A stretch of 26,706 nucleotides of DNA from a virus, in the IMG/VR virus record IMGVR_UViG_3300042922_001228, positions 1-26,706 of that record; one strand, given 5' to 3'. The position numbers and the translations under genes were made by a program. Numbering within the stretch: the stretch's first letter is position 1; each line of letters opens with the position of its first letter. Under the pieces are notes generated by a model that saw only the letters and a program-made list of their open reading frames with translations, was not told the DNA's origin and ran no database searches. Positions 1,852 through 6,046 of the stretch are shown one piece after another.

Positions 1852-2655
1852 TTAGTTTCTATTTAGCAAATGATAACGATCCATTGGAGGTAAATGCCAA
1901 GGATGAGTATCTATGCGTTTGTGGAGTTCGGCTCTCTTTTCTTTCTCGATGAATGACCAAGCTACAAAGCCACCATCATTGAAATAGTCATGGATTGCTG
2001 CGGCCATGTGTGGATTGATTCCTTTTACCGCAGGTCCAAATTGTCTCCACCACCCGCTTAACCAAGCTAGGTATATCGCCATGGCTCTAACATTGGTATC
2101 TAGTCCTGTATTACCGTTTTTATTGCTCATGAGAGCAATTAGGTTGTGTACATATTCAACAGCTACAGGAATTTGGTCAAATGGAATCTCATCTATACCT
2201 TCTACAGCAAACCGCTGGTGCACCAGTTTGTAGGCATCAGAGAAGTTCAGGTTTTTAGTTTTGGCCACTAGTAAGTGAATGGCATCGTTAAGTGATACAC
2301 GTTCAGATTTGTGAGTTTTATGTTTTGGTTGAACTTCCCGATCTAGAATATCTAAAACCCATTTACGGAATTCTTTAGCAATCGCAGTTTTTGCGAACAT
2401 AGCAATAAGATGGCAACCTCGAAGTGAAAAAACTCTTATAGATTGCAAACCACCATTTGTTTTCATTTCTACTAACCGAGTCATATTTGTAGAAAACTCT
2501 TCAATATTTCGATTAAACAGTTTAATTACAGCCGTTTCAGGATTTGCATATCTTAAGGCTAACCCAATTTGGGTTGCCCCTATCCATACCTGCCCATCAT
2601 CTATAGAAATTGGGTATAAGTTCACTTCATTAAATGTTAATGCTAGACTTGTCAT
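1852..2655 (-). CDS. ant: Phage antirepressor, BRO-N plus P22-AR-C type
   Basis: The protein has 267 residues. Residues about 8-108 look like a BRO-N DNA/protein-binding domain (VNLYPISIDDGQVWIGATQI, then SIRVFSLRGCHLIAMFAKT). Residues about 118-185 resemble the P22 antirepressor C-terminal domain (DAYKLVHQRFAVEGIDEIPF). An extra tail of about 80 residues follows. Antirepressors of this type inactivate the prophage repressor and trigger lytic growth. I chose ATG at 2655 because GAAGAG precedes it by about 7 bases; an in-frame GTG at 2670 has no such site. It lies 65 bp downstream of the Arc-like gene on the same strand, as ant follows arc in P22. Translation is probably controlled by the predicted antisense RNA that covers its ribosome binding site. 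The family call is firm; the immI role is inferred from context. Confidence 0.85.
   Translation of the reverse strand: MTSLALTFNEVNLYPISIDDGQVWIGATQIGLALRYANPETAVIKLFNRNIEEFSTNMTRLVEMKTNGGLQSIRVFSLRGCHLIAMFAKTAIAKEFRKWVLDILDREVQPKHKTHKSERVSLNDAIHLLVAKTKNLNFSDAYKLVHQRFAVEGIDEIPFDQIPVAVEYVHNLIALMSNKNGNTGLDTNVRAMAIYLAWLSGWWRQFGPAVKGINPHMAAAIHDYFNDGGFVAWSFIEKEKRAELHKRIDTHPWHLPPMDRYHLLNRN
2621..2649 (+). promoter_or_regulatory. Predicted promoter of the sar-like antisense RNA
   Basis: TTCACT at 2621-2626, a 17-base spacer and TAGACT at 2644-2649, with an extended TG one base before the -10 box. Both boxes match consensus at 4 of 6 positions. It lies inside the 5' end of ant, pointing away from it, where P22 has Psar. 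Predicted transcription start is about 2656. Confidence 0.4.
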
Positions 2656-2722
2656 ATCTGATCTCTTCACCGAGTTGGATAGAAGCCCCTAGTCCGCCAA
2701 GATTCAGGGGCTTCATTGTTTT
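2656..2722 (+). ncRNA. Predicted sar-like antisense RNA over the ant ribosome binding site
   Basis: A transcript from about 2656 would be complementary to the ant leader, including the GAAGAG ribosome binding site. It would end in a perfect 9-bp hairpin, GAAGCCCCT at 2682-2690 and AGGGGCTTC at 2706-2714, followed by ATTGTTTT. The expected length is about 65-70 nt. P22 encodes a small antisense RNA, sar, of about this size in the same arc-ant intercistronic position, and it represses ant translation. The hairpin is seen directly; the RNA itself is inferred. Confidence 0.45.
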
Positions 2723-2879
2723 AATTCGTTTGAGTTAATAACTTGGAACGAGTTTCTTCTAAAGTTTTAACAATAAAATTATTTAAAGAGCGTCCATCTT
2801 TTTTCGCCTGCTCTTTTAAAAAAATTTTTAAATCTTGTGGTAGACGCAAGTTATATTGCGGATTTTTATGCTTACTCAT
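2721..2879 (-). CDS. Arc-like ribbon-helix-helix repressor, 52 residues
   Basis: This short gene reads MSKHKNPQYNLRLPQDLK at its N-terminus and has GRSLNNFIVKTLEE further on. That is the Arc/Mnt ribbon-helix-helix pattern: a beta strand (QYNLRLP) for major-groove contact, then a helix with GRSxN and a second helix. P22 Arc has 53 residues with QFNLRWP and GRSVNSEI at the equivalent places. ATG at 2879 is preceded by GAGAAG. It is the first gene of the arc-ant transcript and probably damps it by binding the operators upstream. The family is clear; the role is from the immI layout. Confidence 0.85.
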   Translation of the reverse strand: MSKHKNPQYNLRLPQDLKIFLKEQAKKDGRSLNNFIVKTLEETRSKLLTQTN

Positions 2880-2898: not shown

Positions 2899-2936
2899 AG
2901 CCGATGGCTACCATTTAAATTTAATACCCATCGGCT
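2899..2936. promoter_or_regulatory. Operator-like repeats in the arc-ant promoter
   Basis: AGCCGATGG at 2899-2907 and CCATCGGCT at 2928-2936 form a perfect 9-bp inverted repeat. The 10-bp sequence GGCTACCATT also occurs twice as a direct repeat (2906-2915 and 2933-2942). The repeats straddle the predicted -10 box of the minus-strand promoter, so a repressor bound here would block arc-ant transcription. Confidence 0.55.
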
Positions 2937-2947
2937 ACCATTGTCAA
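2919..2947 (-). promoter_or_regulatory. Predicted arc-ant promoter (Pant-like)
   Basis: On the minus strand a consensus TTGACA (2947-2942), a 17-base spacer and TTAAAT (2924-2919) form a sigma-70 promoter with its start near 2912, about 33 bp before the Arc-like ATG. Its -35 box overlaps that of the divergent promoter. Confidence 0.55.
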
Positions 2948-3035: not shown

Positions 3036-3320
3036 ATGAGTAGCGGTCATTTAAATGCACAATATAATTTAAGACTTCCTGATGACTTGAAGCAAAAAAT
3101 TGCTCAATCTGCAAAAGAACTGAACCGATCAATGAACGCGGATATAGTGGCTAGACTCGAAAGCAGCTTTGAACATAAAAACATTGATAATTTGGAAGAT
3201 ATTCCTTTAGAAAAACTTTTATCTGCAGTAATGGAGAAATTAGGAAAAAACTCTTTGAGCCTAACGCGTGAAGAAATTGCACGGGGTAAAGAGTTAGCAA
3301 AAAAAAATGAAAAAAACTAA
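3036..3320 (+). CDS. Mnt-like Arc-family repressor, 94 residues
   Basis: The N-terminus contains QYNLRLPDDLK and LNRSMNADIVARLE, the ribbon-helix-helix signature of Arc/Mnt proteins. P22 Mnt (82 residues) has FNFRMP and GRSMNSEL at the same spacing. A charged C-terminal half, about residues 50-94, could be the oligomerising helix found in Mnt. The gene is divergent from the arc-ant pair, as mnt is in P22, and probably holds the module silent in the lysogen. ATG at 3036 fits the family N-terminus; a TTG at 3000 would add 12 unrelated residues. Its ribosome binding site is weak. The pairing with Arc and Ant supports the role but does not prove it. Confidence 0.8.
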   Translation: MSSGHLNAQYNLRLPDDLKQKIAQSAKELNRSMNADIVARLESSFEHKNIDNLEDIPLEKLLSAVMEKLGKNSLSLTREEIARGKELAKKNEKN

Positions 3321-3557: not shown

Positions 3558-4682
3558 TTGAATTTATTTACCCCAATTGTTAATTCTGATAAACAACATG
3601 ATATTTTTAAACTACTAATTAATCCACAATTATATGCTGAGAGAGATGTTATTAATGATTGGGCGAGTGGATTTATAGATAGAGATAAAAAATTTGTAAA
3701 AGAATTTCAAACTACATTTGAATCATCATTTTTAGAACTTTATTTAAATAAAATATTAAAAGAAGATAATGTAAAATTGAATTTTTCATATCATGCACCC
3801 GACTTTGTTTGTGATAAAGATGGTGAAGAATTTTGTATTGAAGCAACTATAGCCAATCCAGAACAAGACGGTCTTCCAGCATATGGTTTTACTGAAAGTC
3901 ATATATCTTTTGATATTGATTTCGCAGAGTTTAATAGAAAGTCTATCATTAGAATTGCAAACTCCATCATTGTAAAAGCAAGAAAATTTAAAAGTTCTTA
4001 TAGTAATTTATCTCATGTATTAGGTAAGCCCTTTTTACTTGGATTAAACTCTTTTGATAGACCACATTCGCACTTTACTGGGCACCGTGGAATCATTGCT
4101 GTTCTCTATGGAATTTATTTAAATGAGGAAAAAGCTATAGCTGAAAACCTAAGTTTTATCCCTCAAGAAAGGATGGATTTTGTTGAAAAAAGTAATGGAG
4201 CTGAAATTCCTTTAGGTTTCTTTACCACACCAGAATATGAATATATTAGTGCTATTATTTATAATCCATATGCAACTTGGGGGAAAGTACGTGCACTAGC
4301 TGAAGTCTCTGATACTAATAAATATTGTATATTTAATGCGATATATACTAGAGACAATGAAATGGAAGAAAGCTTAATTCCGGATATTCATACTGGGATA
4401 ATAAAAGAAAAATATAAGGAGTCAATATTTGATGGACTTTATGTATTGCATAATCCATTTGCAAAATATCCTATGCCAGCAAACTTATTTAATGACCCTT
4501 TAATAGCTCATATGATTATAGATGAATCTGGTCATTTAGTTGAGCGAATTACTGGTAAGTTTTTACTATCTCGTAGCTTAATTTGCCCAGACTCTCAAAC
4601 ATTACCTCAAAAATATAGAGAAGCTCTAGATAATTTTATTGAAAACTTAAAAAAAAATTATACATATAAAAAAGCACCCTAG
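3558..4682 (+). CDS. PD-(D/E)xK-like nuclease-fold protein, unknown function
   Basis: The 374-residue protein shows the order expected of a restriction-endonuclease fold: a helix with FESSFLELYL (residues 54-63, Glu55 or Glu60), then APDF (Asp82), then FCIEAT (Glu95). The usual Lys of the ExK motif is replaced by Thr97; Lys140 in a following helix (NSIIVKARKFK) could substitute, as in families with a migrated lysine. No signal peptide or membrane segment is seen. The start is TTG at 3558, supported by GGAG 7 bases upstream. The gene stands alone, facing a DUF4062 gene across a shared terminator, in a block more AT-rich than the tail genes. It is likely accessory cargo, possibly anti-phage. 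The fold call is moderate and the function is unknown. Confidence 0.6.
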   Translation: MNLFTPIVNSDKQHDIFKLLINPQLYAERDVINDWASGFIDRDKKFVKEFQTTFESSFLELYLNKILKEDNVKLNFSYHAPDFVCDKDGEEFCIEATIANPEQDGLPAYGFTESHISFDIDFAEFNRKSIIRIANSIIVKARKFKSSYSNLSHVLGKPFLLGLNSFDRPHSHFTGHRGIIAVLYGIYLNEEKAIAENLSFIPQERMDFVEKSNGAEIPLGFFTTPEYEYISAIIYNPYATWGKVRALAEVSDTNKYCIFNAIYTRDNEMEESLIPDIHTGIIKEKYKESIFDGLYVLHNPFAKYPMPANLFNDPLIAHMIIDESGHLVERITGKFLLSRSLICPDSQTLPQKYREALDNFIENLKKNYTYKKAP

Positions 4683-4716: not shown

Positions 4717-5892
4717 TTAATTTTCAGAATCATTTTCATCATCTCTCTGTATTAATATTTTTTCATTATTTATAGAAATATAATATTCAAATGGTTCTCT
4801 TATATAACGTAAAAATGACATAGATGGCCGTATATCAACTAATGCATCAACAATTATTTCTTTTGTACTTTCATTCAATTTAATAAAAGAATCCCAATCT
4901 AATGAAATATTATTAAGAAAATCTATGGGCATTCTTAACTCAAAAAATGTTCTATCTTCTTTAATTAATAATACTTTTGATCTGATACCGGGACTCCTAA
5001 AATTAAACATTATTTCAGGATGTTGATTTAAATCTATAATCTCTACAATTCCTACATGTTTTAAAAGATTATCCCACGAGTAAAGCCCTTTTGTTAGTTC
5101 TGAATTGCTTAAACCAATAACTTTTAAAAAATCAACAAGACGTCTATATTTAACTACTCCTCGAGCGATCTCTCTTTCGTTAGTATTGCTAATTGATGTG
5201 ATAATTGCTGTTTTTAAATCTTCAAATTGTTCTGTAAGGTTTTCAATACGTTTAGCTTCAAATGCTTTATTTCTTTGTTCTTGAACTAGCCTTTGAAACA
5301 GAGATGACCACTGTCTTTTTAAAATATCTTCAATATCTTGGAGTTTAGAAAAAGGATGAACACTATTTCCTTTAATTCTATGCCGTAGGAAATTAATAAA
5401 CTCAAAAATAAATAAAGCTGTATGAGGCTTTTCAATTGATGGAAAAATAATTTCTTCTATAATTGGCTTATCTTTATTTTTTTCATACAGTGAATGATCA
5501 TGCATGACACCTGCATCAATAAAAGTATAAATAGGAATATCTGATTGAACAGCTTTAAGTATTTCTAATTGGGTTATAGACAAATTTTCTTGCTTCTTTA
5601 GAGTTTCGATGCTACGACTTTCTTTTTTTAAGTTTTCAAAATCTAAGCCTGCCAATGCATCGGGCACTACTTTACCACCAAATCTTGAACCAATTATTAA
5701 TACAACTACATCAGCAGAACCAACCTCATCTACACAACTTGTATGAGTATGAGTTCTGGGATCATAAAGTAAATCACTATAGTCACTCATGAATGGTTCA
5801 TGACCAAGATTTTGTATAAAAATACGTAATTGCGAGCGAATAACTGATAGATCATAACAAGTAGACGAAACAAAAACCCTCAATCCAGCCAT
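4717..5892 (-). CDS. DUF4062-domain protein, possible defence sensor
   Basis: The 391-residue protein opens with a DUF4062 signature: LRVFVSSTCYDL (about residues 4-15), then SADVVVLIIGSRFGG (about 62-76) and SITQLEILKA (about 104-113). DUF4062 is a Rossmann-like, TIR-related domain often fused to STAND NTPases or other effectors in conflict systems. Here no NTPase P-loop is visible. Instead a likely coiled coil follows (about residues 195-235), then a C-terminal domain I do not recognise. I chose ATG at 5892 because GGGGAG lies just upstream; a TTG at 5904 would destroy that spacing. The gene has its own strand and terminator, like a moron. Domain identity is confident; an anti-phage role is inference. 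Confidence 0.75.
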   Translation of the reverse strand: MAGLRVFVSSTCYDLSVIRSQLRIFIQNLGHEPFMSDYSDLLYDPRTHTHTSCVDEVGSADVVVLIIGSRFGGKVVPDALAGLDFENLKKESRSIETLKKQENLSITQLEILKAVQSDIPIYTFIDAGVMHDHSLYEKNKDKPIIEEIIFPSIEKPHTALFIFEFINFLRHRIKGNSVHPFSKLQDIEDILKRQWSSLFQRLVQEQRNKAFEAKRIENLTEQFEDLKTAIITSISNTNEREIARGVVKYRRLVDFLKVIGLSNSELTKGLYSWDNLLKHVGIVEIIDLNQHPEIMFNFRSPGIRSKVLLIKEDRTFFELRMPIDFLNNISLDWDSFIKLNESTKEIIVDALVDIRPSMSFLRYIREPFEYYISINNEKILIQRDDENDSEN

Positions 5893-6046
5893 AACTCTCC
5901 CCAAAAAGATAATTTATTAAAAAACGTTAAAACTTAGAATATTTAATCAAGCGTTACTTAAAAAGTTACTTATAATATTAAACTTACTAAATTAATTATT
6001 CTTCGTTTTAAGACTAATATAATGATTTGTCAACCAAAATATTCGA

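Follow-up and report, generated by a model that had tools for sequence, protein, structure and literature searches.

The small antisense RNA sar is known from phage P22 and its relatives. In the annotation of the P22 genome (NC_002371) it runs from position -1 of the ant ATG to the arc stop, and its promoter lies within ant. As set out in a review (PMC12197685), P22 sar pairs with ant mRNA and interferes with the initiation of its translation. Weiss 2016 (PMC5320573) describes the C4 RNA of phages P1 and P7 as processed from a larger transcript and having another fold, and tabulates 84 sRNAs with their positions in Acinetobacter strain AB5075, a genome outside the set of loci compared here. 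The literature searched, with most subscription journals outside its coverage, did not describe any sar-like RNA from Acinetobacter; PMC11472050, PMC12802169 and PMC12646401 gave no relevant passage under prophage or phage terms.

The window analyzed here, the whole 26,706-base stretch of an IMG/VR virus record, is judged from its sequence and that of its relatives to carry, with high likelihood, a P22-type immunity-I switch of an Acinetobacter prophage, in which the stretch 2621-2722 would encode in cis a sar-type antisense RNA, some 67 nt long, to block translation of ant.

Gene content of the locus

The features of the region are collected in Table 1. The ant gene is 97% identical to copy L002 of Acinetobacter calcoaceticus DSM 30006, and its start is placed at the ATG at 2653-2655 rather than at the GTG at 2668-2670 that opens the longest reading frame, because the GTG reads GTT in that closely similar copy. 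At the Shine-Dalgarno position the window has GAAGAG where L002, L005 and L006 have AGGAGA; GAAGAG is perhaps the weaker ribosome site. The ant of L006 has a TGA stop at codon 6 (L006:4016-4033), yet its leader and RNA are intact. The label of phrog_795, the family matched by the mnt-like gene, is "partition protein ATPase", a name that the P22 annotation likewise uses for the Mnt product. The candidate arc-ant promoter is flanked by the palindromes TAGCCGATGGCTA and GTCCACATGTGGAC, at 2899-2911 and 2980-2993, and the arc-less relatives L020 and L023 carry other paired palindromes, e.g. ATCCCCAATGGGGAT; all of these are likely operators.

The gene just past the mnt-like gene, at 3558-4679 on the plus strand, matches the anti-phage defence family PD-T7-5 (PADLOC, E 8.6e-119), so that a defence gene adjoins the immunity switch. 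It is followed at 4720-5904, on the minus strand, by a gene for a DUF4062 protein (Pfam, 3e-15) without a PADLOC match. The stretch at about 1815-1845 resembles the 3' end of a tmRNA gene, and ARAGORN reported no tmRNA in the window; the stretch may be an attachment site, with a host permease gene on one side and the prophage on the other.

Table 1. Features of the ant region of the window and the basis on which each was assigned
Feature	Position	Strand	Basis
ant, Bro-N antirepressor, 267 aa, ATG start	1852-2655	-	Pfam Bro-N 2.5e-10; phrog_2127 anti-repressor 3.5e-58; start from conservation
-35-like box TTCACT, 17 nt from the -10	2621-2626	+	read from sequence
Extended -10 TGC TAGACT (TG 2641-2642; TAGACT 2644-2649), on ant codons 3-5	2641-2649	+	synonymous-site conservation
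Predicted sar-like antisense RNA, about 67 nt	2656-2722	+	R1 match, 65.4 bits at 2638-2723; extent relative to ant and arc as in P22 sar
Stem-loop I, with its apical part complementary to the ribosome binding site of ant	2656-2680	+	predicted fold, covariation
Likely ant Shine-Dalgarno GAAGAG, covered by the predicted RNA	2663-2668	-	assignment inferred
Stem-loop II, terminator hairpin: 9 bp, inner pairs, loop CGCCAA	2682-2714	+	predicted fold, covariation
9-bp stem arms GAAGCCCCT / AGGGGCTTC	2682-2690 / 2706-2714	+	read from sequence
T-rich tail ATTGTTTT	2715-2722	+	read from sequence
arc-like ribbon-helix-helix gene, upstream of ant	2721-2879	-	Pfam Arc 8.2e-08
Candidate arc-ant promoter TTGACA-18-TAAATT, 10/12	2918-2947	-	consensus match only
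mnt-like ribbon-helix-helix gene, divergent	3036-3320	+	Pfam Arc 2.4e-10; phrog_795 1.5e-18

The predicted promoter and RNA

A sequence-only reading of this stretch had described a plus-strand promoter inside ant, with TTCACT and TAGACT 17 nt apart and an extended TG, as well as a perfect 9-bp hairpin at 2682-2714 with ATTGTTTT behind it at 2715-2722; all of these elements are present just as it described them. On the minus strand, the ant codons 3-5 that lie under the -10 read AGT CTA GCA. The predicted transcription start at about 2656 is position -1 of the ant ATG, and the predicted end at about 2722 coincides with the arc stop. The same reading had expected an RNA of about 65-70 nt over the ant ribosome binding site, and the extent now predicted, about 67 nt from 2656 to 2722, agrees with this and lies over the likely Shine-Dalgarno.

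Taken alone, the promoter, with 8/12 consensus matches, is not above chance. A generic promoter and terminator scan of the window listed neither the predicted antisense promoter nor the hairpin, which was overlooked because the scan's loop limit is 8; between 1500 and 4500 the scan gave 9 promoter-like sites against 14.0 expected from shuffles. The fold of 2680-2725 has an energy of -19.8 kcal/mol (z -4.83) and that of 2656-2725, comprising the predicted RNA, one of -25.5 kcal/mol (z -3.99), and in each case 0/200 shuffles equal it. The unit of promoter and hairpin is placed far above chance by its conservation among relatives.

Conservation among relatives

The ant protein was found at E <= 1e-20 in 43/175 Acinetobacter genomes, and an alignment-based scan of IMG/VR gave 80 ant loci. 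The 114 ant starts located, in 71 distinct forms, were reduced to 56 representatives and then to 52 non-redundant Acinetobacter-type ants, less than 90% identical over the first 150 nt. P22 was left out of the 52, as were L145, L151 and L152, whose N-termini resemble those of other lineages; these three have neither the motif at codons 3-5 nor the terminator. Alignment A2 holds 45 rows, the window and 44 of these relatives, and A3 holds the 39 that are left when L016, L018, L024, L037, L134 and L139, some of them badly aligned, are taken from A2. The relatives share kinship, so that p-values computed from them overstate significance.

The codons beneath the predicted -10 are the top three of 99 alignment columns by constraint. 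Across the 52 relatives, Ser at codon 3 is written AGT in 45/45 cases (background 191/826, 23%), Leu at codon 4 is YTA in 49/49 (background 520/1208, 43%), and Ala or Thr at codon 5 is RCA in 46/47 (background 34%). The best -35 match at a spacing of 16-18 averages 4.02/6, compared with 2.59 in shuffles, though coding constraint may contribute to this. At the other end of the unit, an antisense-side terminator is found in 52/52 relatives where 5.8 would be expected from shuffles; the simple rule used fails to score P22's own sar, and is therefore no sar detector.

Covariation of the hairpin among relatives had been proposed in the earlier reading as a check; when this was run, both hairpins were found to covary. 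Stem II has 51 compensatory cells in which both sides have changed (15.2 when shuffled) and a covariation score of 0.414, against 0.155 when shuffled and at most 0.179 when slid; for stems I and II together the compensatory cells number 85, against 36.4. Stem-loop I is formed at the 5' end in 44/52 relatives (12.7 expected). The loss of both hairpin and promoter boxes from homologous loci, which had been named as what would speak against an antisense RNA, was looked for among these relatives, and the proposal stands. Promoter constraint, the antisense-side terminator, covariation and strand-specific folding all agree with a P22-sar-like reading of 2621-2722, and the predicted small RNA is very probably real; this evidence from evolution points to the plus-strand RNA as the molecule selected.

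Distribution and downstream genes

A covariance model, R1, was built without P22 from the window and 38 relatives (39 rows). It scores the window, itself one of the training rows, at 65.4 bits at 2638-2723, and matches P22 sar in register at 29.8 bits (E 1e-4), part of that score coming from shared ant codons. Matches at E <= 0.01 are found in 91/175 Acinetobacter genomes; among 229 genomes drawn from the class, the only match is in G001, the Acinetobacter genome on which the search was centred, with the qualification that the class genomes do not share the base composition of Acinetobacter and the R1 background is therefore only approximate. The Rfam sar model, RF00262, gave no match between 2560 and 2800 even at E <= 10 and none over its curated cut-off of 43 bits in the Acinetobacter genomes (0/175); as a control, it scores P22 at 97.8 bits. 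At gathering score, Rfam gave no match in the window, neither to sar nor to C4 (RF01695, cut-off 45 bits).

The genes behind the RNA were examined at 70 of the stronger R1-match loci. The ATG is in place at 69/70, L213 being the one without it. Behind R1 lie 61 distinct proteins of at least 40 aa, which carry Bro-N (27), KilA-N (10), P22_AR_N (6), ORF6N (4) or Rha (2) domains; the remaining 12/61 are small ORFs of 54-124 aa, several of them in PHROGs of unknown function. Genes for P22_AR_N and KilA-N proteins were also sampled regardless of R1, for unbiased denominators, and R1 is found at the gene start (E <= 0.05) in 16/27 and 13/30 loci respectively, the weakest matches lying near the threshold. 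At 37 R1-selected loci outside the training set (L207 and L220 were left out, since the same or nearly the same sites had served for training), the stability of stem-loop I is once more confined to the antisense strand (-5.06 against -2.47), and tails with at least 5 T of 8 occur in 30 on the antisense side against 0. The 12 small-ORF loci behave alike, with stem-loop I at -5.5 against -2.5.

The RNA occurs independently of arc: 22/52 relatives have an Arc-like gene upstream, 27/52 have a divergent ribbon-helix-helix gene alone, and 3/52 have neither. At L216 and L218, where both the Arc-like and the divergent gene are present, the RNA stands before a small ORF not recognisable as an antirepressor. 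We would put at about even the chance that the sar unit is a portable antisense-control cassette, whose promoter, RNA, leader and first five codons move as one block onto unrelated Acinetobacter prophage genes, encoding five kinds of antirepressor N-terminal domain as well as small proteins not recognisable as antirepressors. Since such a block would include the first five codons, the shared N-terminal tag M-x-[SN]-[LI]-[AT] would then be set by the antisense promoter and not by protein function. The main loop varies less than the stems, with CCGCCAAG in 21/52 relatives on 11 different 5' arms; as the loop is kept while the stems change, the RNAs of resident prophages may pair also with the messages of other phages.

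Alternative explanations

The hairpin folds on the mRNA strand too, and it might work in the ant mRNA itself, as an attenuator or as a stability or translation element, with no antisense RNA being made; some sense-side terminator-like tail is indeed matched, more loosely, in 28/52 relatives (1.6 expected). The T tract, however, is on the antisense side only: the 8-nt tails average 5.31 T there and 2.46 on the sense side, and at least 5 T of 8 are found in 43/52 as against 0/52, the hairpin being mis-called in L134 and L139. G-U polarity likewise favors the antisense strand by 13:1 (13 G-U cells as antisense, 1 A-C cell that would be G-U on the mRNA), stem-loop I is stable only as antisense (-6.09) and on the mRNA strand (-2.83) is about as weak as shuffles (-2.54), and the fixed codons 3-5 lie outside the hairpin, all of which leaves an element of the mRNA very unlikely. 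The least probable of the alternatives is that codons 3-5 are constrained by translation initiation or protein function, while the hairpin merely terminates something else, e.g. transcription entering from ant. Start regions often prefer A/T codons, and Leu at codon 6 is also invariably YTA (33/33 in the 52 relatives), so that an early-codon A/T preference may explain part of the constraint. A general start-codon effect nevertheless fails to explain the AGT of codon 3, since the Ser of codon 2 varies (TCT 9, TCA 4, AGT 3), and TCA and TCT would be as A/T-rich at codon 3, where AGT is always used. In the P22_AR_N and KilA-N loci, moreover, the strict extended -10 motif occurs only where R1 matches (15/29 R1-positive and 0/27 R1-negative loci, L277 having no ATG and the start choice being wrong in a few rows, e.g. 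L234, L258 and L259), a contrast that is partly circular because R1 spans the extended -10 bases; stem-loop I, too, evolves as an antisense RNA.

It is conceivable, though improbable, that the conserved loop (UUGGCGGA on the mRNA side) serves mainly as a landing site for chromosomal C4-like sRNAs, and that the cis RNA is secondary. C4 (RF01695) is present in 8/10 ant-bearing genomes, and C4-type RNAs are many and scattered in Acinetobacter genomes (L041-L070), with 24 in G001 and 26 in G142. Pairing of the C4 b' region is 3.5 kcal/mol stronger with class-A leaders than with shuffled ones, although the b' segment belongs to the Rfam consensus and this match may therefore be due to chance. Class B loops, on the other hand, show no gain (+0.02, 12/52), and we know of no demonstrated target for the C4-like sRNAs of Acinetobacter. 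C4-like sRNAs were rejected as a general partner of the loop, the pairing gain being seen for some loop classes only; P1's own C4-target pairing was considered as a yardstick.

Proposed mechanism and significance

For the sar-type antisense RNA preferred here, the extended -10 promoter in ant codons 3-5 would read away from ant, on the plus strand, giving an RNA with its 5' end at the base before the ant ATG and its 3' end at the arc stop. Of its two stem-loops, I would lie over the ribosome binding site of ant and II would serve as terminator. This RNA, fully complementary to the ant leader, would pair with it and so keep ribosomes off ant. If events follow those in P22, the Mnt-like protein would keep the arc-ant promoter shut in the lysogen, any leaked or early ant message would be blocked by the antisense RNA transcribed from inside ant, and Ant would be made only when its message outruns the antisense RNA. 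We infer that the RNA would be transcribed in the lysogen and repress ant translation there, acting alongside the Mnt-like and Arc-like repressors as a second brake.

In our judgement the RNA is ordinary in kind, being sar-type, and its breadth beyond the known sar is what is new. Sar-type antisense control appears from these comparisons to be kept across one bacterial genus, to outlast the neighbouring arc and to be attached to different proteins, which would place antisense control at the core of the antirepressor switch. Constraint at the DNA level would explain the recurrent N-terminal peptide, and R1 lets existing A. baumannii RNA-seq data be searched at once.

Comparison with C4, P22 sar and the immunity-I module

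The C4 RNA of P1 and P7 (RF01695) and the C4-like Group 1 sRNAs of A. baumannii are likewise concerned with controlling an antirepressor message in antisense, close to the ribosome binding site; processing from a larger transcript and a different fold set C4 apart from the RNA of the window.

P22 sar is much closer. Like the predicted RNA of the window it sits between arc and ant and covers the ant start region, and the two agree almost to the base in their extent relative to the ant ATG (-1) and the arc stop. P22 sar is about 68-70 nt long with two stem-loops, the second of them the terminator, and the window RNA agrees by predicted fold and covariation; both promoters lie within the 5' coding region of ant, that of the window by sequence and conservation. 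The sequence-only reading had spoken of a conserved layout with unrelated sequence. The layout is borne out; "unrelated" probably has to be given up, since the stem GAAGCCCC..GGGCTTC is common to P22 and the window and the -10 falls on the same three codons, TGC TATACT over AGT ATA GCA in P22 and TGC TAGACT over codons 3-5 in the window. Sequence, and not merely layout, thus appears to be related to that of P22, though the loops differ. The Mnt-like divergent gene, the Arc-like gene and Ant follow in the window in the same order as in the P22 immunity-I module, whereas 27/52 relatives keep the RNA and the divergent ribbon-helix-helix gene with no Arc-like gene seen; in contrast to P22 sar, the Acinetobacter RNA occurs with or without arc and before several unrelated genes.
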